Of a stretch of DNA of 34,752 nt, positions 26,005 through 34,752 are shown piece by piece (within the stretch, counting starts at the first letter, position 1; each line of letters begins with the position of its first letter). The notes under the pieces were generated by a model. That model searched no databases. It was not told the origin of the DNA and was given only the letters and a program-made list of their open reading frames with translations. Source of the stretch: a virus; IMG/VR virus record IMGVR_UViG_3300047553_000037, positions 1-34,752 of that record; one strand, written 5' to 3'. The translations under genes were made by a program, and so were the position numbers.

Positions 26005-26982
26005 TTATGCAACGATTGTGTTCCAGAAGTAACCGAGGTCTGCTCCGATTACCTTGTTATCAAATGCCATTTCCGCTTCAATGCGGTCTGACTTGATTGA
26101 CTCCATGCGGAACTGTGAAGTTCCAACAGTCTGTCCGAGACCACCTGAAACACCTGTCCAAGCGAATGTGTAACCCGCTGAAGGTGTAAGAAGTCCTGGG
26201 TTTGGAGCAACATGGGTAAGGAGTGCGCCCTTGCCAAATGCAAAGCCGTAAGCCTCTGATGCGCCTTCGTTGTTTGTAGCCTTGACAGCCTTTGCAACCA
26301 TAACGCGTGGAATGTCGAACATTGCCGCGAGCATATCGGTTGTGATTGTCTGTGAAGATGTGTACTTGATACGGTCTACAAGGTCTGGGTGATTCTTAAG
26401 AGCCTTGAATACATCGTATCCGAGAACGAGTGTGTTTGCTTCCATTCCTGTATTACCAAGAATCTCAGCCTTACCTGACTCGATGTCAGCGATTGGGTCT
26501 GATGATGCGTAATCTGACCAATGCTTTGTCTCGCCTGATGATGGAGCGCCAGCAACACCTGTTACATCGTCAGCCCATACGCCAGTTGTGAAAAAGTCGC
26601 TTACGAACTGAAGTTCGCGGCGAAGCATCAAACGGCGAGTAACGAACTCTGTCGCCTCACGGAGAGGGTTCAAAGGTGAGTCTGCGTTAGCAAGTGTCTG
26701 GTCATCTACATCCTTGTGGAACGCCCAGACATCTGCTGAGTATGTTCCAGTTGAAAGGTTGTATCCGCCACCAGCAGATTCAGTTCCAGGTGCGCGGCGC
26801 TGAGCCTCGTCACGGAACCAATCGTTCTTGGTGTAGGTGAAGTATTTGTCAGACTTCTTATCCACAGGAATAACTGGGAATACCTTGTCTGCAATGAAGT
26901 TATCTTGGTTCTGTAAATAAGCAACCGAGATGTTTGTGAGAATAGCATCAATGTGAACGCTATTGATATTTGGCTGTGGCAT
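26005..26982 (-). CDS. major capsid protein
   Basis: 325 residues. MPQPNINSVHIDAILTNISV, NFIADKVFPVIPVDKKSDKY, RRAPGTESAGGGYNLSTGTY and RRLMLRRELQFVSDFFTTG are typical of the gpE-like HK97-fold capsid family. NTLVLGYDVFKALKNHPDLV and the C-terminal ESIKSDRIEAEMAFDNKVIG complete the fold. It is preceded by scaffold-like and decoration-like genes, the standard order. No N-terminal delta domain is evident, consistent with a separate scaffold protein. Confidence 0.92.
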   Translation of the reverse strand: MPQPNINSVHIDAILTNISVAYLQNQDNFIADKVFPVIPVDKKSDKYFTYTKNDWFRDEAQRRAPGTESAGGGYNLSTGTYSADVWAFHKDVDDQTLANADSPLNPLREATEFVTRRLMLRRELQFVSDFFTTGVWADDVTGVAGAPSSGETKHWSDYASSDPIADIESGKAEILGNTGMEANTLVLGYDVFKALKNHPDLVDRIKYTSSQTITTDMLAAMFDIPRVMVAKAVKATNNEGASEAYGFAFGKGALLTHVAPNPGLLTPSAGYTFAWTGVSGGLGQTVGTSQFRMESIKSDRIEAEMAFDNKVIGADLGYFWNTIVA

Positions 26983-26997
26983 TGTTAGTTATCCCCC

Positions 26998-27393
26998 TTA
27001 TGCCGCTCTGCCTGGATTGGCACAGTTAATAACTGCTGTAACGATGTTTCCATCTGCCGCAGATTCGGTTAGTAGTGTTCCTACAACATACTTTGTTGTA
27101 TCTGTTCCAGCGACAAGAGCGACTGCCTTGCCTGTTGCACCTGTACCTACAAGTGCGCCTTCGCCAATTGCGGCTCCAGCAACAATCTTTGTTCCGCCAA
27201 CAACAAGCACTTCTGCTTCCTGTCCTGCGGTTGGTGCGTTCTGAAGAACTCCGATTGGAATATCAGTAGCGCCAGAAGCCGCCGCTACATTTCCGCTGGA
27301 ATCCAACTTTACAAATGTGTACTGCTTTGAGGAAAGGTCTGCCGCCGCTACGAGGGTGACCTTTACCGAGTAATTACTGATTTCGTATGCCAT
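26998..27393 (-). CDS. capsid decoration-like protein (DUF2190-like)
   Basis: 131 residues of mostly beta character: VKVTLVAAADLSSKQYTFVK, LDSSGNVAAASGATDIPIGV, LQNAPTAGQEAEVLVVGGTK and the DGNIVTAVINC end. It fits the DUF2190/decoration protein family encoded between scaffold and major capsid genes; such trimers bind and stabilise expanded capsids. Confidence 0.78.
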   Translation of the reverse strand: MAYEISNYSVKVTLVAAADLSSKQYTFVKLDSSGNVAAASGATDIPIGVLQNAPTAGQEAEVLVVGGTKIVAGAAIGEGALVGTGATGKAVALVAGTDTTKYVVGTLLTESAADGNIVTAVINCANPGRAA

Positions 27394-27395
27394 GT

Positions 27396-28187
27396 TTAAG
27401 CACCCTTTTCGTTACGGTATTGGACATAAAGTTCAGGATTCTGTGATGCAACATCAGCGAACGCTTGTTCGAATGACTTTGCATTTCCATCCTCAACTGC
27501 TGACTTTGCCAAAGCGGTCAAACGACCATAGGCATCGCCTGTAGTGAAGTCTGCGGATTTCCCGATTTCCGCAAAGATGTTTGCTGATTCTGCTTGTGCA
27601 TTGACAGATGTGAGGATTTCCTCAACTGACTTTGCTAGGTCTGAATCAACTGCTGACAAGCGGCGAAGCGCTGGTCCGACCTTCTCTGCATCAAGATTCA
27701 AATTAGAGAATCCCTTTGCCTTTTCAATTGCTTCAGCATCAGCCTTAGCCTCGCGCTCCTTGCGGAGTTCTTCGGTTGCTGTTTCTGCTTGCTTCTTGAA
27801 ATCTTCAATCATTTTGACGACTGACTCTGGAGCAGACTTTAAGAATTCTGCTTCATCCGAGGTTTCTGACTTAGACATTTCAACTTCATCTTCCTTCATT
27901 TCTTCGGAAGCGATTTTGGCTTCAAGGTCTGCAATCTTCTTCATTGCTTCCTCAAGTGTCATTTCAGCCTTTTCAACCTGCTCATCAGTAGCCGTAGTAG
28001 TTACTTCATCCTGTGTTACATCAGGCATGATTTCCTCCTCGGTGAGCGATTCGTCTAAGACTCTCTGAACTTCAGATTCATCGGCTGATTTCATAACCAG
28101 CCAACCTTCATGTAGATGTGCAGGGTGGTCTACCCCAGATGTTTCCTCAATGACTAAATTCGCCATTTTGCGAGTACGAGCCAACAT
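27396..28187 (-). CDS. capsid scaffold-like protein
   Basis: 263 residues. The N-terminus has MANLVIEETSGVDHPAHLHE then GWLVMKSADE, typical of phage head proteins next to the protease. The core is acidic and helical (MTLEEAMKKIADLEAKIASE, SVVKMIEDFKKQAETATEEL, RKEREAKADAEAIEKAKG), the mark of an internal scaffold, and the C-terminal part (SFEQAFADVASQNPELYVQY) would bind the capsid subunit. TAGGAG precedes the first ATG; a second, stronger site exists at 28028. The XkdF-like protease upstream probably degrades it. Confidence 0.82.
   Translation of the reverse strand: MLARTRKMANLVIEETSGVDHPAHLHEGWLVMKSADESEVQRVLDESLTEEEIMPDVTQDEVTTTATDEQVEKAEMTLEEAMKKIADLEAKIASEEMKEDEVEMSKSETSDEAEFLKSAPESVVKMIEDFKKQAETATEELRKEREAKADAEAIEKAKGFSNLNLDAEKVGPALRRLSAVDSDLAKSVEEILTSVNAQAESANIFAEIGKSADFTTGDAYGRLTALAKSAVEDGNAKSFEQAFADVASQNPELYVQYRNEKGA
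28026..28040 (-). promoter_or_regulatory. strong internal ribosome-binding site and ATG in scaffold gene
   Basis: GAGGAGG is followed after five bases by an in-frame ATG (MPDVTQDEV) within the scaffold gene. Starting there gives a 210-residue protein lacking the first 53 residues, but keeping the whole coiled-coil core. Nested starts for scaffolds are known in several phages. Confidence 0.5.
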
Positions 28188-28287: not shown

Positions 28288-28554
28288 TTACTGGTTAATC
28301 AAAATCCTTAGATTGGTCAGGGCGGCTATCAAATCCTCAAAAGCCATCATTGAAAATGGGTTATCGCTTTGCCAGAATCGGGCAACTCGGAAATGAAAGT
28401 CTCCCTCACCCATCTCGCTCCAGACAAAAAATACCTGTGAATCATTAGGTAACTTAGCCACTAGCCCAGCAAATCTAGGCGCTGTTGTAACTGGATTTAC
28501 CTCTAACCCCATACCGCGAAGAATGCTCGCGGTGTCCTCAATGATGCTTTTCAT
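28288..28554 (-). CDS. hypothetical protein, 88 aa
   Basis: The ATG at 28554 directly abuts the TAA of the frameshifted extension frame upstream (TAAATG). MKSIIEDTASILRGMGLEVN, SQVFFVWSEMGEGDFHFRVA and the C-terminal MMAFEDLIAALTNLRILINQ suggest a small alpha/beta fold. I do not recognise the family. It lies between the Tudor-like and scaffold genes and is likely head-related or merely in transit. Confidence 0.65.
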   Translation of the reverse strand: MKSIIEDTASILRGMGLEVNPVTTAPRFAGLVAKLPNDSQVFFVWSEMGEGDFHFRVARFWQSDNPFSMMAFEDLIAALTNLRILINQ

Positions 28555-28818
28555 TTAATTCGTATATCTCTGACTTGGGGTAATTCGGGATGGGCGCAAG
28601 ATGTCCATATCATCCATCCAGCGTGGGTCATCCGCATCTAATTCTTCGAACTCACCCTCGGAGTCATCGTCTGTCGAGTGAAACTTAGGATGGTCACGAT
28701 AGTTTTTTGGTTCTGGGGAATCTTCGCCCTCTGAATCGTCTGGGTTGTATTTCCCGTTAGCCCAAGCCCCATGTGATGCTTGGTCGTGATTACCGTGTTT
28801 GGCTACTGCTACTTTTTT
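28555..28818 (-). CDS. -1 frame extension of the Tudor-like protein carrying an HDQ box
   Basis: Directly after the A9 run, the frame one base back from the Tudor-like gene is open for 85 codons and has no start codon in a usable position. It reads VAVAKHGNHDQASHGAWANG, then a very acidic stretch (DDSEGEDSPEPKNYRDHPKF, STDDDSEGEFEELDADDPRW) and ends SRITPSQRYTN. Its stop abuts the ATG of the next gene, exactly as for a normal gene in this operon. KHGNHDQASHGAWANG is the same box that appears twice in each of the two upstream proteins, which shows the frame is translated. Expected fusion: about 219 residues. Confidence 0.75.
   Translation of the reverse strand, partial: KKVAVAKHGNHDQASHGAWANGKYNPDDSEGEDSPEPKNYRDHPKFHSTDDDSEGEFEELDADDPRWMDDMDILRPSRITPSQRYTN
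28753..28800 (-). repeat. HDQ box copy 5
   Basis: Encodes KHGNHDQASHGAWANG in the frameshift extension. It is one codon pair shorter than the other four copies before HDQ. Confidence 0.75.
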
Positions 28819-29213
28819 TTTAATGTAGACATCTTATGACCAACCTTAGTTTCGGTTGGCTTGCCATCACGGTACAACTGGATAAGAACTGCTGGGTCAT
28901 CTTCAGTTCCTTGAATAGTAAAACTTGAATCAGGCACATTGATTTTGCCGTTTGATACAACGCGAACTACTTTGCCGCTTGCACTTCCACCTGATGAATT
29001 CCAAGAAACCATATCGCCTCTTGATACAGAAACAGCCTTCTTCATTGAATAAGCCATGTCGCGCATAGCCTTTTCTATCATTGATTTAGCGTAACCCTTA
29101 AGACCTGCGATTCCCTTTTGATTGACTTCTTCTTCAATCATCGCGTATTCGTCATCCTTCATGTTTTTCATAGGACCTTTACGAAGTTCGGTGAGAATCT
29201 TTTTGTCTTTCAT
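28809..29213 (-). CDS. Tudor-like (HVA1-type) protein, zero-frame product
   Basis: 134 residues. The N-terminal half (EYAMIEEEVNQKGIAGLKGY, AKSMIEKAMRDMAYSMKKAV) is helical. The C-terminal half (VSRGDMVSWNSSGGSASGKV, VRVVSNGKINVPDSSFTIQG, TEDDPAVLIQLYRDGKPTET, VGHKMSTLKKK) is the HVA1/Tudor-like small beta domain often found beside or fused to phage head proteases and portals. The gene overlaps the XkdF-like gene (ATGA). It ends on a run of nine A immediately before TAG; a -1 slip adds the HDQ extension. Confidence 0.85.
   Translation of the reverse strand: MKDKKILTELRKGPMKNMKDDEYAMIEEEVNQKGIAGLKGYAKSMIEKAMRDMAYSMKKAVSVSRGDMVSWNSSGGSASGKVVRVVSNGKINVPDSSFTIQGTEDDPAVLIQLYRDGKPTETKVGHKMSTLKKK
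28812..28818 (-). promoter_or_regulatory. A AAA AAG slippery heptamer
   Basis: The heptamer lies in the correct phase in the last sense codons, one codon before TAG, within a run of nine A (28821-28813) followed by G. It is identical to the slippery site of E. coli dnaX. A CCAACC...GGTTGG stem-loop sits 21 bases upstream (28859-28840) and a CCAAGC...GCTTGG stem-loop 28 bases downstream (28783-28762); neither is at the usual stimulator distance. Confidence 0.7.
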
Positions 29214-29929
29214 TTGGTTTCCTTTGGCTTTTTCTTCTTTGGATTCATAATTGTATCAACATGAACATCATTGACCCCTGGACCATCTTCCTTCTCAACT
29301 TCTTCCATATCAACATAAAGGCGTTCAGCCTTACCGCCGATTGAGTATCCAAGAATCTTTCCAGATTTAACTAATTCCCAAGCCCAAGGCTCCCAGATAA
29401 CACCAAGAAATACTGTGTTTGCTGGATAGGTGTGGTTCACATCAATACCGCTTAGGGTCTGGATAGGAACTGTTAATTCATAAGGGAACGCCATTACTTC
29501 GACCCATTCACCTGCGACTACATCGCGGTTATGTTGAAGTCTGATACGGCGGTCATTGCTCTTTACATAATCCCAGACGGCTCTCTGCAACTCATCTGAA
29601 TCTGTCCATTCACCATGAGCATCAATGCGGTCTGGAATGTACATAGCCCCAAGCGTGTAGCGCTTTTCGCCCTCCGCTTTTGATACTTCGTACTTGCCGA
29701 TGTTTTTAACTACTTCGACAATAAAAGCATCTGGAAATATCTTTGCGGCTATCTCTGGAGTTACCTCTTGGTAATCCATTGAGCCATCTACGAGAGCCTT
29801 AACCAATCGGTCAGTCGGCTCCCAATCTCCATGCCACTCCATCTCAAACTTGGCATCTGGGGCATCTAGCCCTAGACGGAAAAGCGTGAGCGGATTGCCT
29901 TGGAGGTCTACCTTTACGAAATAACGCAT
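29210..29929 (-). CDS. XkdF-like prohead protease
   Basis: 239 residues. The N-terminal third (GLDAPDAKFEMEWHGDWEPT) is variable. From about residue 92 the XkdF-like domain follows: GAMYIPDRIDAHGEWTDSDE, LQRAVWDYVKSNDRRIRLQH (H133), AGEWVEVMAFPYEL, then ANTVFLGVIWEPWAWELVKS and GKILGYSIGGKAERLYV (S196). H133 and S196 are candidates for the catalytic pair of this putative serine protease family. Such proteases process scaffold and capsid during maturation. It overlaps the polyvalent gene by 16 bases and the Tudor-like gene by four. Confidence 0.85.
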   Translation of the reverse strand: MRYFVKVDLQGNPLTLFRLGLDAPDAKFEMEWHGDWEPTDRLVKALVDGSMDYQEVTPEIAAKIFPDAFIVEVVKNIGKYEVSKAEGEKRYTLGAMYIPDRIDAHGEWTDSDELQRAVWDYVKSNDRRIRLQHNRDVVAGEWVEVMAFPYELTVPIQTLSGIDVNHTYPANTVFLGVIWEPWAWELVKSGKILGYSIGGKAERLYVDMEEVEKEDGPGVNDVHVDTIMNPKKKKPKETK

Positions 29930-32148
29930 ACGGCTACCCCTCTCTCTAGGTTCCAGGACATTTTACCAACTGGGGTTGATTTTATCAAGCCAGCCTGTCG
30001 TGCTGTCTCGTACTCCTGTACGACTAGCGTTCCCATGGTTAGGAGCGTAGCCATGTTGGTTGGGCGAGGGATTGACTTAGCAATATCTACCATCTGTGAC
30101 CAATAGCCTTGGCGGGATGTCTCGTTGGTTTCAACTCTGTACTGCTCATAGATTGGGTGAAGTTGTGATTCCTTTGCCTTGAATGAGCGAGGAGTGTGCA
30201 ACTGAACTTCGACTGTGATGCCATCCTTTGTAGCCTTAATATTGGCTCCATCGTAAGGGTCGCCTGTCTGCCAGAAATTCTTTGTACGCAACTTAAATCC
30301 AGCCGACTCAAGCGCCTTGATGGTTCGGTCTGCTCCAGCGGTGTACTCATCATCTGGCATTGTCATCGTGTAGCGAATTGCATCTGAAATGTTCTCAGCC
30401 GCTTTTTGATGGTCACCGCCAAAGTCTTTCTCTGCATCTAAATCAATTTTGCGAGCCAATGAATCTGTTGTTTTAACTCTGTACTGAAGCCCGATAAGTT
30501 GTCCACCTGACATCTTTGCAAGGTCTTGCATCAATCCAGTTACCTGTGGTTCAACTGAAAGAATTCTGTCGCGCAGTCGCTTTGCCGATTGAACTGCTCC
30601 CGCGGTTCTGTTTCCTTGTGGCTTTGTATCCTCAATAAGAGGTAGAGACTTGTCTGAAGCCCCAGCCCATGAGCCGTGAGCATTTTGGTCGTGCTGTCCT
30701 TCAAGATGCTTCCAAACAAATTTAGATTTCTTTGCAGGTGCATCAATAGCCTGACCTTCAAAGCCATTTGCTGTAGCCCATTCACGGGATATACCTAACG
30801 CTTCTTCTGCCGTCACCGACAATCTGTAAACAGGCAATGTCGTTCCAGGATTATCAAAAGCAAAACCAACTGAAGCGCCCCATGTGTGGTGACCATCAAT
30901 AACAAAGCCATCGCTTGAAATCAAAATTCTTTCATCTTGAGGTATTCCGCCATCTTCACGGAACTTGTTATAGATAGCACCAGAACGAGAAGATGAAATC
31001 TCTTTCTGAATAGGCTTTAACTTTAATGGGTCTGCTTCCTCAGCGGTTGAGGTAACTCCCTCAGACTTCTCAATTTCAGAGAGGAAGCGAGCGCGTTCTT
31101 TTCCAGGAATCTGTGGCATATCTTTACGAGCAATACCCATACCTTCATCACCAAAAAGAAGCGTTCCATCAACGCTCAACTCAGTAAGGTCTGGATGGTC
31201 TGTTCTCTTTGCCGCTCCCATAAGAAACGCAGAAACATTCTCAGCCTCAACATGAGGATGCTTTCCATCCAAAATATCTTGAGCAATATCGTCTGCCCAA
31301 CTGCCATGAGTTTTTTGGTCGTGCATACCTTGGTTATGTTTTGAAACTTCTTTCTCAGCCTGAGCGACCATGGACTCAGCCCAAGCGAATCCTGCATCTC
31401 CGCCCCACGCATCCCAAGCCACGCGACCTGGAGATGGGAAACCTTTTTCGCCTTGGCTAAATCCAAGTGCGTTCTTATCAACCTCATGGCGAGAGAAGAA
31501 AGATTTCATGCGCTTCAAAGTTGCAAGAGAGATTGATTCACCCGCCGCTAACTGGCTTGCTCTACCGCGACCAACTCCAGTAAATCCGCTACCAGCCTTA
31601 CCATCTGCAATCCAATCAAGCGCTCTACGAGCCGCCGCTCTAACTGCCTTCGGTGGCGTGTGACCATCCGCTTTCTTGAACTGGTGCATCTGGGCTAAGC
31701 GTTGTTCTGCCTCAGCCTTTGTGTTGTAAGTGCCAAATCGTCTCTTGCCTTCTTCATCGTAAACGGTGTACTTGCCGTTCTCGTTACGAATCATTTTGTG
31801 TAATTCTTCAGACTTCTCTAGGCGCATCTCATACCCAGTAGTAGTCAAAAATAGTTGGACATCTGCAACTGCTGACCCTGTTGATTTGATGACATCTTCA
31901 ATCATCTCGGCAGGAAGGGAACCAACAAGGGCTTTGAGATTGGCTTGCTTCATTGTGTCTACAAGGATTTCGAACTCATCCCAGACATCGTTCTGAGGCG
32001 CTTCTAGCCCACGGCGCAACATCTCATTGACGGCTAAGTGATGGACTTCTAGGACCTCTGGGGTCGCCTCTGATTTATGAAGGCGCTCATGCAAAGCGCG
32101 TAGTTTATCCGCGCTTAATTCAATTAGTTTTGGTGCAATCTCCGCCAT
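29914..32148 (-). CDS. polyvalent head-region protein with ParB-like and RelA/SpoT-like domains
   Basis: 744 residues in modules. 1-110: helical start common in actinobacterial-phage head proteins. 119-160: short repeat-like segment with FGTYNTKAEAEQRLAQMHQF. 161-262: PPKAVRAAARRALDWI to GRVAWDAWGGDAGFAWAESM, a known phage domain of unknown role. 271-287: HDQ box. 300-460: ParB/sulfiredoxin-like region with DGFVIDGHHTWGA. 480-495: HDQ box. 530-672: RelA/SpoT-like nucleotidyltransferase with YRVKTTDSLARKI, ISDAIRYTMTMP, DPYDGANIKATKDG and VEVQLHTPRSFKAK (E647, Q649 candidates). Such multidomain proteins may be packaged in the head and injected with DNA. This role is inferred. Confidence 0.8.
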   Translation of the reverse strand: MAEIAPKLIELSADKLRALHERLHKSEATPEVLEVHHLAVNEMLRRGLEAPQNDVWDEFEILVDTMKQANLKALVGSLPAEMIEDVIKSTGSAVADVQLFLTTTGYEMRLEKSEELHKMIRNENGKYTVYDEEGKRRFGTYNTKAEAEQRLAQMHQFKKADGHTPPKAVRAAARRALDWIADGKAGSGFTGVGRGRASQLAAGESISLATLKRMKSFFSRHEVDKNALGFSQGEKGFPSPGRVAWDAWGGDAGFAWAESMVAQAEKEVSKHNQGMHDQKTHGSWADDIAQDILDGKHPHVEAENVSAFLMGAAKRTDHPDLTELSVDGTLLFGDEGMGIARKDMPQIPGKERARFLSEIEKSEGVTSTAEEADPLKLKPIQKEISSSRSGAIYNKFREDGGIPQDERILISSDGFVIDGHHTWGASVGFAFDNPGTTLPVYRLSVTAEEALGISREWATANGFEGQAIDAPAKKSKFVWKHLEGQHDQNAHGSWAGASDKSLPLIEDTKPQGNRTAGAVQSAKRLRDRILSVEPQVTGLMQDLAKMSGGQLIGLQYRVKTTDSLARKIDLDAEKDFGGDHQKAAENISDAIRYTMTMPDDEYTAGADRTIKALESAGFKLRTKNFWQTGDPYDGANIKATKDGITVEVQLHTPRSFKAKESQLHPIYEQYRVETNETSRQGYWSQMVDIAKSIPRPTNMATLLTMGTLVVQEYETARQAGLIKSTPVGKMSWNLERGVAVCVIS
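30658..30711 (-). repeat. HDQ box copy 4
   Basis: Encodes KHLEGQHDQNAHGSWAGA between the ParB-like and RelA/SpoT-like parts. Confidence 0.8.
31288..31341 (-). repeat. HDQ box copy 3
   Basis: Encodes KHNQGMHDQKTHGSWADD between the PPKAVR domain and the ParB-like part. Confidence 0.8.
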
Positions 32149-32327: not shown

Positions 32328-34752
32328 TTATGAGTTTACCGCACTTACTGGCTTTTCTCTAGCGGTTCCATCAAAGACCAAGCCATCGCCATCACGGTCA
32401 ATTGGACCTTCAAATAGGTTGCGACCTTCAGCGGTAAGAACCTTTGTGTAATAGAGATTCTGGTCTTGTAAAAGCCTTTGCCCCGCCCATGTATATTCAA
32501 CTTTTGTCTCACCTGTAACTGGAGATTCATAGTTATTGGATTCTTTGTCTTTGTATCCAATCATGGCAAAATCATTCGGCAATGGAAAATTGTTATCGCT
32601 AACGCTTTTAACTGAGTCATAGAAGATGCCATCTTCTGTTGATTTGTACCCGTTAGTAGCCCGTTCCATGAGAGCATCAAACTCAACTCTGGCTGGACTT
32701 CCAAATAAGAAATCTGTGCTGTTATTTGCTTCGTAGTAGAGATTTCTAATGCCGCCCTCAACATTCTTAGGATTCCAGTCAAAACCAGAACGCGCCCAAT
32801 GGCGAGCGCCATCCCACCCAGTCATAACAGTAATCCCACCGATACCACGCTGGGCATACCAATCTTCTTGGCGCTGAATAAATTCTTTGCCAAAACCAAG
32901 TCCCTTGTAATCATCATCCATCTTGAATATATGGTGGTCTACCATCCACACGCCCTCTTGCTTATAGAAATATCTTTCGAACTCTCCAGCAAAATTTCCG
33001 TCATCGTCTGTAATTGTTCCTTTTACGCTAATTACTGGTTGATTTCCATTTCCCACATCTTCAAAAGCGGCATCTACATAGGTAACCTCAGATTTAAGGG
33101 TAGTTACATAATCTCCGCTTGAACTGACTACTTCGTGTTCTGTGTTATAGACTTCCTCAAAATATGGAACAATTTCTCCAGTTAATTCTTGAACTTCTCC
33201 AAGTCCTGCTTCAGCGTTATATGCCGCTTGCAAATCATCCATGTTTTCTGAAATGTAATTACTAATCATTTCATCTTTGAGCGATTCGTAAATCGCGTTT
33301 TTCTCTTGTTCCGTTACCTCTTTTAGTTCGGATGCTGAAGCAACCCTCTCATTCCAAATTTCATCAATACCGTCTACAGCCGAGATAAATAATGAAGCAT
33401 CATTATTGACCATCATTTCTAATTGCTCAATATCTGCATCAGCATTTTTCATGCTATCTATAATTGCATCTAAATCCTCAAGGGCTGGTCCAAGGTTAGA
33501 CATCTCATCCATACGAGCAATTTCTTCAGCCGTATATCCATTAGCCCAACTGCCATGGGTACTTTGGTCATGCTGACCTTCAAGGTGTTTAATCGCTGGG
33601 ATTAGCCCAGCCTCAAAACGAATTACTTTGTAAGACTTCTCAAATGTTGCTGGGACTTCCCAGAACTCTTTAGGGAGCAATGCGACTTTCTGCTCAGCAA
33701 AGCCTTGATTGCGTGTGTTGTACCAAGAATTCTGCCCACGGGTTTCTGTGGTAAGCGCACCGCGAGCGGTTTCTGTAAACATCTGTGAATGGTGGACCCA
33801 TGCAGATTCTTCTCCGTCTTGACCAAAGCCTCGACCAGTAGCGGCGTGTCCAAAGAAATCGTGAACTGCTCGGAACTTGTCATTCTGCTCATCCTTGAAG
33901 AATGGGTGTGAGCCTGTAGAGGCTGTGCTTAATACTTTTAGAACTCCCTTACTTACATCTGCAAACATCTCTCTGGAAGTTTTATATGGGTCATCGGCTA
34001 CAAATTCAACCTTGATGCCCATGGTCTTAGTCATGTAATCGAACTGCGCCTCTACCTCTGTGGCTAGGGCTGTATAAGATTCAAATGCTTTTTCATCTTT
34101 GACGGGCAACTCATCGTAAGCATCTGCAATGCGAGCCGCTCTTGCTCGGTTCGCAACTGTCTTTTGATAATCAATAGAATCATCTTGTTTAATTCCCGCT
34201 TTGAAGGCGTACTCTTTCGCGCCATCTCTAGCCGCCTTAACTGAATCTGGACCGAAGCGACCTGAAGCCCACGACCCGTGAGTGGCTTGGTCGTGCTGTC
34301 CCTCTAGGTGCTTTTCAACTGAGTGATAACGACCTAGGCAGACATGACCTGACTCTAACGGTTCTTTTCTATCGCGTTCAGAATCTCCTCCGCGAAGGCT
34401 TGCTTCTCCTCGGGGGTCATCTGATTGACGGGGATTGGAACTTCCACCATCTTTGGATTTGTTTGTTCTGTCATCTTCCTCATCTTTCATGTAAATGTAT
34501 TCGTCTTTTTCAATGTCGTACACAGATTGTTGGTCGTTATCGAATCCAGCGCGAACTGCTTCACCTCTGGAGTCGTAGCGGCGAGAGACATCAAGGTACA
34601 CAGTTCCTTGGTCTTTTACAACCCAGATACCAAAATAGGCTCCGCGCTCGCTGAGTGCATCTGCGTTCTTCTCGATATAGTCCAAGAGAATCTCTCGGCT
34701 ACGGTCACGACTTGAGAAGAAATCTTTGTATTCAACTGTCTGTTCAGCCCCA
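32328..34752 (-). CDS. multidomain protein, 5' end beyond window: HDFFGH domain, GNAT-like domain, two HDQ boxes
   Basis: The frame is open to the right edge, so the true start is outside; a TTG at 34685 is not convincing because coding-like sequence (VEYKDFFSSRDRSREILL) continues upstream. Numbering from that TTG: 17-58 GIWVVKDQGTVYLDVSRRYD and SVYD, a segment common in actinobacterial-phage proteins; 125-142 HDQ box; 170-345 a domain with FRAVHDFFGHAATGRGF (H275, H280) and DGEESAWVHHSQMF, possibly metal-binding; 366-383 HDQ box; acidic helical stretch; 554-637 GNAT-like region with YKGLGFGKEF; end DRDGDGLVFDGTAREKP. Probably a head-associated or injected protein near the portal. Confidence 0.75.
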   Translation of the reverse strand, partial: GAEQTVEYKDFFSSRDRSREILLDYIEKNADALSERGAYFGIWVVKDQGTVYLDVSRRYDSRGEAVRAGFDNDQQSVYDIEKDEYIYMKDEEDDRTNKSKDGGSSNPRQSDDPRGEASLRGGDSERDRKEPLESGHVCLGRYHSVEKHLEGQHDQATHGSWASGRFGPDSVKAARDGAKEYAFKAGIKQDDSIDYQKTVANRARAARIADAYDELPVKDEKAFESYTALATEVEAQFDYMTKTMGIKVEFVADDPYKTSREMFADVSKGVLKVLSTASTGSHPFFKDEQNDKFRAVHDFFGHAATGRGFGQDGEESAWVHHSQMFTETARGALTTETRGQNSWYNTRNQGFAEQKVALLPKEFWEVPATFEKSYKVIRFEAGLIPAIKHLEGQHDQSTHGSWANGYTAEEIARMDEMSNLGPALEDLDAIIDSMKNADADIEQLEMMVNNDASLFISAVDGIDEIWNERVASASELKEVTEQEKNAIYESLKDEMISNYISENMDDLQAAYNAEAGLGEVQELTGEIVPYFEEVYNTEHEVVSSSGDYVTTLKSEVTYVDAAFEDVGNGNQPVISVKGTITDDDGNFAGEFERYFYKQEGVWMVDHHIFKMDDDYKGLGFGKEFIQRQEDWYAQRGIGGITVMTGWDGARHWARSGFDWNPKNVEGGIRNLYYEANNSTDFLFGSPARVEFDALMERATNGYKSTEDGIFYDSVKSVSDNNFPLPNDFAMIGYKDKESNNYESPVTGETKVEYTWAGQRLLQDQNLYYTKVLTAEGRNLFEGPIDRDGDGLVFDGTAREKPVSAVNS
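33537..33590 (-). repeat. HDQ box copy 2
   Basis: Encodes KHLEGQHDQSTHGSWANG between the HDFFGH domain and the helical/GNAT-like part. Confidence 0.8.
34260..34313 (-). repeat. HDQ box copy 1
   Basis: Encodes KHLEGQHDQATHGSWASG between the N-terminal part and the HDFFGH domain. Confidence 0.8.

Follow-up and report, generated by a model that had tools for sequence, protein, structure and literature searches.

Does the Tudor-domain gene of this phage encode a single protein, or are two proteins made from it by a change of reading frame close to its end? The window analysed here, the whole of virus record IMGVR_UViG_3300047553_000037 (34,752 nt), carries the gene on its minus strand (28809..29213), where the zero frame specifies a head-module protein of 134 aa ending STLKKK*, the predicted short isoform. 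An earlier note on this DNA had described the product as a Tudor-like head protein, and the zero-frame protein does match Hva1_TUDOR (PF11160), with an E-value of 8.6e-10 and a score of 39 bits against the curated cut-off of 24.1; the assignment also draws on relatives of the gene. The minus-strand junction reads TCT ACA TTA AAA AAA AAG TAG, and the slippery run of nine adenines (A9) in TTA AAA AAA AAG TAG, conserved in relatives, occupies 28813..28821, where it appears as T9 on the plus strand and is the sole A/T run of at least eight in the entire window. The zero-frame stop TAG (28809..28811, minus strand, read 28811-28809) is the first codon past the shift site. Both heptamers that the run offers, A AAA AAA and A AAA AAG, are in the -1 phase, so that the ending AAA AAA AAG TAG and the phase of A AAA AAG are as first described, on the minus strand.

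From the run onward the -1 frame (28555..28821, minus strand) starts AAA AAA AAA GTA GCA GTA GCC AAA CAC GGT and provides KKK, 85 codons and a TAA, which would form the C-terminus of a long isoform composed of an HDQ box and an acidic tail. The box, KHGNHDQASHGAWANG (28753..28800, minus strand), is similar to four boxes in two upstream genes, with H codons at 34295, 33572, 31323 and 30693, and the 85-codon extension with a box resembling four others is therefore present as the earlier note had claimed. The same note had placed the tail stop one base before the next ATG; the two are indeed adjacent, but the one-base gap does not exist, as the TAA at 28557-28555 abuts the ATG at 28554 directly. 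This ATG opens the next gene, of 88 aa (28288..28554, minus strand). A comparison of the tail with a collection of 50,697 deposited phage records gave no match.

The gene is embedded in a head module on the minus strand. Upstream of it, and overlapping its start by 4 nt, is an XkdF-type prohead protease identified by its Peptidase_S78_2 domain (29210..29929), preceded by a 744-aa protein with two HDQ boxes and a C-terminal region resembling head-morphogenesis proteins (29914..32148; profiles phrog_7625 and phrog_2859) and by a 785-aa protein with two further HDQ boxes and a phrog_3170 domain (32328..34685). Downstream, profile matches identify a phrog_13547 protein, scaffold-like by its position, a head scaffolding protein (phrog_673) and the major capsid protein (Phage_cap_E), all within 26005..28187. 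The nearest relatives of this capsid protein are those of Arthrobacter phages, at 58%. The phage family itself is uncultured and mostly from freshwater. In other lineages the Tudor domain is fused to the S78 protease (L050, L062), and in Roseobacter phage CRP-811 to protease and capsid protein together; since the domain is joined elsewhere to a prohead protease or a capsid protein, the Tudor module is part of head assembly.

To place the junction in a wider setting, relatives were collected in five scans of viral contigs and de-duplicated by junction sequence, yielding 127 junctions, with one locus (L356) left out as its -1 call was an unrelated downstream gene. The tail lies in the -1 frame in 70 of these 127; because the loci come from overlapping scans, the 70 represent distinct sequences and not independent origins. 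Another 26 carry the box in the zero frame and 23 have some other in-frame continuation, five are short, and two (L175, L278) have a run of eight with the tail in +1. By run length the -1 junctions divide into 54 with A9, two with A10 and 14 with A7. All 70 have at least seven A from the Leu codon on, with A AAA AAA in phase, so the unit common to them is this heptamer, nearly always inside exactly nine A. The earlier note had proposed looking among homologous phages for a conserved site with separate frames, and 70 distinct junctions retain the -1 arrangement.

Several features of the comparison bear on whether the two frames are kept apart deliberately. In 70/70 of the -1 junctions the first codon past the shift site is a zero-frame stop, which may be TAG, TAA or TGA. 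Where the -1 codon after KKK encodes Val in groups A1 and A2 it is GTA in every case, a choice that preserves the zero-frame stop. The tail is under purifying selection, with median dN/dS values of 0.06 (A1), 0.08 (A2) and 0.10 (A7 group) that are similar to those of the head. Although the tail has an open frame of its own, ATG, GTG and TTG are absent from the -1 frame between 8 codons before and 25 codons after the junction in all 70 cases, and relatives carry the same sequence as an in-frame fusion; a tail encoded by an independently initiated gene is hardly credible.

The same observations address the simplest objection, namely that one A has been lost from a plain fused gene by assembly or sequencing error. 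The site is a homopolymer, fused in-frame relatives exist, among them one with ten A in nearly the window's own context (L030), and L175 and L278 have runs of eight. Against this stand the 54 A9 junctions, which are all distinct and in many cases come from different metagenomes, an A7 class of different sequence, and a zero-frame stop held in 70/70 through changes among TAG, TAA and TGA with a codon choice that preserves it. Given the stop, the GTA choice, the lack of start codons and the tail dN/dS, a base missing from a single assembly is ruled out as the explanation, and the alternative raised in the earlier note is excluded for the family by its 70 -1 junctions, its invariant stop and its A7 class; for the site at hand, such an error is very improbable. 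L030 could represent a genuine fusion, a variant form or a mistake of the assembly. Its ten A in frame represent what the earlier note had regarded as the mark of a plain fusion, and this occurs once in the same context, with L171 (A10 followed by T) similar; weighed against 70 -1 junctions, the claim of a tail in a separate frame stands.

A related possibility is phase variation, in which replication slippage would switch a population between A9 (short form) and A10 (fused form). The A10 in-frame sequences L030 and L171 and the A8 sequences L175 and L278 could be such variants. However, the run almost always has nine A and seldom another length, and the A7 class with its hairpin would be left unexplained, all of which makes this account improbable. 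The comparison instead argues strongly for the production of tailed and untailed proteins that the earlier note had suggested, through the 70 -1 junctions, the stop and the missing start, and the programmed synthesis of two isoforms is, as judged from sequence comparison, very likely.

How the frame would be changed is a separate matter. The -1 junctions present two types of signal. A stem of at least 6 bp starting 2-11 nt past the run is found in 14/14 A7 junctions, as compared to 1/56 A9/A10 junctions. The A7 stem consists of 6-7 bp (GCCTAGA ... TCTAGGC) and begins exactly 6 nt past the run in every one of the 14; mean fold z-scores are -2.7 for A7, -0.2 for A1 and -1.5 for A2. Among 312 same-residue pairs at the stem codons (4, 5, 9 and 10), not one differs synonymously, as compared to 930 of 3108 elsewhere in the tail, and random sets of four tail codons matched this in 137 of 20,000 draws. 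No covariation was detected in the A7 stem, six of the seven pairs being invariant, and it lacks such support because its pairs hardly vary. In one relative (L017) tail and stem are both lost and the run is shortened. In another (L047, junction ~245) the A7 and hairpin are retained, and the -1 tail carries NHDTIGRFASGSG where the HDQ box would be expected. Two more (L019, L132) have the A7-hairpin cassette joined to a Tudor head from another branch of a weakly supported tree, which suggests that the cassette may have been exchanged between branches; the tree is based on 79 columns and has many weak forks, so counts of gain and loss are rough.

A rival account, that of the earlier note, would have the ribosome alone slip by -1 on A AAA AAG or A AAA AAA in all classes. 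Every one of the 70 junctions has A AAA AAA in phase, A9 followed by G is the commonest type, both heptamers suit ribosomal slippage at A9, and the A7 hairpin lies at the classical distance. A further hairpin ~22 nt downstream is present in many members of one A9 group, where 7-8 of its 8 pairs form in 34/48 sequences as compared to 2/23 non-tail boxes of similar peptide. This account is nevertheless strained by the 55/56 A9/A10 junctions without a stem at 2-11 nt, and by the bases that follow A9 in its 54 -1 junctions (G in 44, T in 8, C in 2), as C or T is evidently tolerated there. The third Lys is also dispensable, given that in-frame relatives have KKN, RKS or NKS, yet A9 is retained. Nor is there a consistent Shine-Dalgarno-like element upstream; an AAGG, considered as a candidate stimulator, is possible in part of the sequences but does not occur consistently, with AAA as the relevant Lys codon in half of the A1 sequences. 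A search of Rfam found no family at the site in the window at the gathering threshold, and only sub-threshold chance matches at the junction of L007. A ribosome-only mechanism throughout is possible, although less likely than not.

The A9 junctions, without a stem and with G, C or T after the run, are fitted at least as well by transcriptional slippage. Bacterial RNA polymerase slips efficiently at nine A or T, and Thermus dnaX makes use of such a run (PMC5009743). A run of this kind, of about nine A/T, is present at the window site. The downstream stem-loop of the E. coli dnaX type is seen in just 1/56 junctions of the window's A9 class and in 14/14 of the A7 sister class. The dnaX-like ribosomal slip on A AAA AAG put forward in the earlier note is therefore one candidate among others for the A9 class, with no stem at the right distance and G, C or T after the run, and fits best in the group with A7 and hairpin.

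Taken together, the preferred reading is a programmed change of frame at this site, by which one gene would supply a Tudor-domain head-assembly protein in two isoforms, most likely through slippage of the polymerase at A9 and probably of the ribosome at A7; on the strength of the sequences, its probability is put at roughly 0.8. The majority of transcripts would give the 134-aa short form, and a fraction would enter the -1 frame at the A-run to give a form of ~219 aa with the HDQ box and acidic tail. In A9 phages, including that of the window, the most likely route is slippage by RNA polymerase, which would leave a share of the mRNAs with one extra A; the ribosome may contribute by slipping -1 on these nine adenines. 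In the A7 sister group, -1 slippage of the ribosome on A AAA AAA, aided by the hairpin 6 nt downstream, is the probable route.

The genomic background of the run was surveyed in stretches of ~60 kb from related records. In three records with the A9 frameshift (G001, G005, G006) the site is the sole A/T run of at least nine, as in the window, and in one with the tail in frame (G004) the only such run in 60 kb again lies at the junction. Two others, one with A7 (G002) and one in frame without a run (G009), have no A/T runs of at least nine. Twelve in-frame junctions retain a run of nine or ten A; their -1 frame meets a stop after 4-7 codons, so slippage there would yield a short form. As proof of a reversed logic, these early stops were judged too weak, since in-frame relatives without a run also stop early in -1. 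A broader proposal is that this one gene family obtains its short and long pair by interchangeable routes, namely a slipping polymerase at A9, a ribosome that slips with the help of the hairpin at A7 and, for some of the in-frame A9/A10 relatives, the reversed version; this is offered tentatively, with the balance somewhat against it. A pair of isoforms is in any case not universal, as in-frame fusions exist, including three distant cases in MAGs found by a scan of genomes with the Tudor alignment, as do relatives without a tail (L017, L122, L283, L037, L038).

As for the tail itself, related phages have 4-10 HDQ boxes each. The repeated peptide may be a module that the head-assembly proteins of these phages share, with one copy accessible solely by slippage. 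In five relatives (L340, L341, L348, L349, L350) the Tudor protein has an additional HDQ box and an insert in its N-terminal half. Conservation of GAC before CAA in the tail box was examined as a possible signal for the frameshift, but the idea was dropped, as other boxes have it too and it fits the avoidance of GATC. The window contains no GATC (140 expected) and no GGCC (94 expected), and related ~60-kb phages have 0 GATC and 0-8 GGCC, a scarcity that suggests avoidance of restriction or methylation sites. A structure model of an in-frame homolog combines a beta barrel with a helical N-terminus and a tail of low confidence, and the acidic tail is probably disordered; a fold search of the PDB with this model gave no match at E <= 0.001 and weak fold matches only. 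In the prohead, the tail likely serves as a tag that equips a minority of the Tudor subunits with a box common to other head-module proteins, in which case the slip would set the ratio.

Phage head and tail proteins with C-terminal extensions made by frameshifting are known, as are Ig-like domains attached in-frame and out-of-frame (PMC5009743). Phages T7/T3 (gene 10), Lactobacillus A2 and Listeria PSA/A118/A500 resemble the present case, as predicted, in that one gene yields a virion-module protein of which a minority is extended. Here, however, a Tudor head-assembly protein takes the place of the major capsid or tail protein, an HDQ box with an acidic tail that of the Ig-like domain, and two signal types serve a single gene family. 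The lambda-type G/GT tail-assembly chaperone likewise uses a slip near the gene end to make a longer minority product for assembly, but is a different gene, situated just before the tape measure and not between protease and capsid genes. A separate candidate for that frameshift is present in the window at 12057-11520 (minus strand), where a 119-aa gene ends GAA TCC TGA and the +1 (or -2) frame reaches the tape measure start. A parallel to the two signal types is dnaX, in which one homologous gene relies on nine A and another on a shorter run combined with a stem-loop (A9/T9, transcriptional, in Thermus thermophilus; A AAA AAG, ribosomal, in E. coli). This pair sets the precedent for mixed routes (PMC5009743; Larsen 2000, cited in PMC3711429). 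In E. coli dnaX it is the short form that results from the frame change, whereas here it would be the long one, and the upstream Shine-Dalgarno-like stimulator is inconsistent here.

Among the papers available for searching, none was found to describe this Tudor/A9 gene. With ~70 natural versions of one frameshift signal, nine-A versus seven-A-plus-hairpin, occurring in closely related phages, the family makes slippage by the polymerase and by the ribosome directly testable within one gene.
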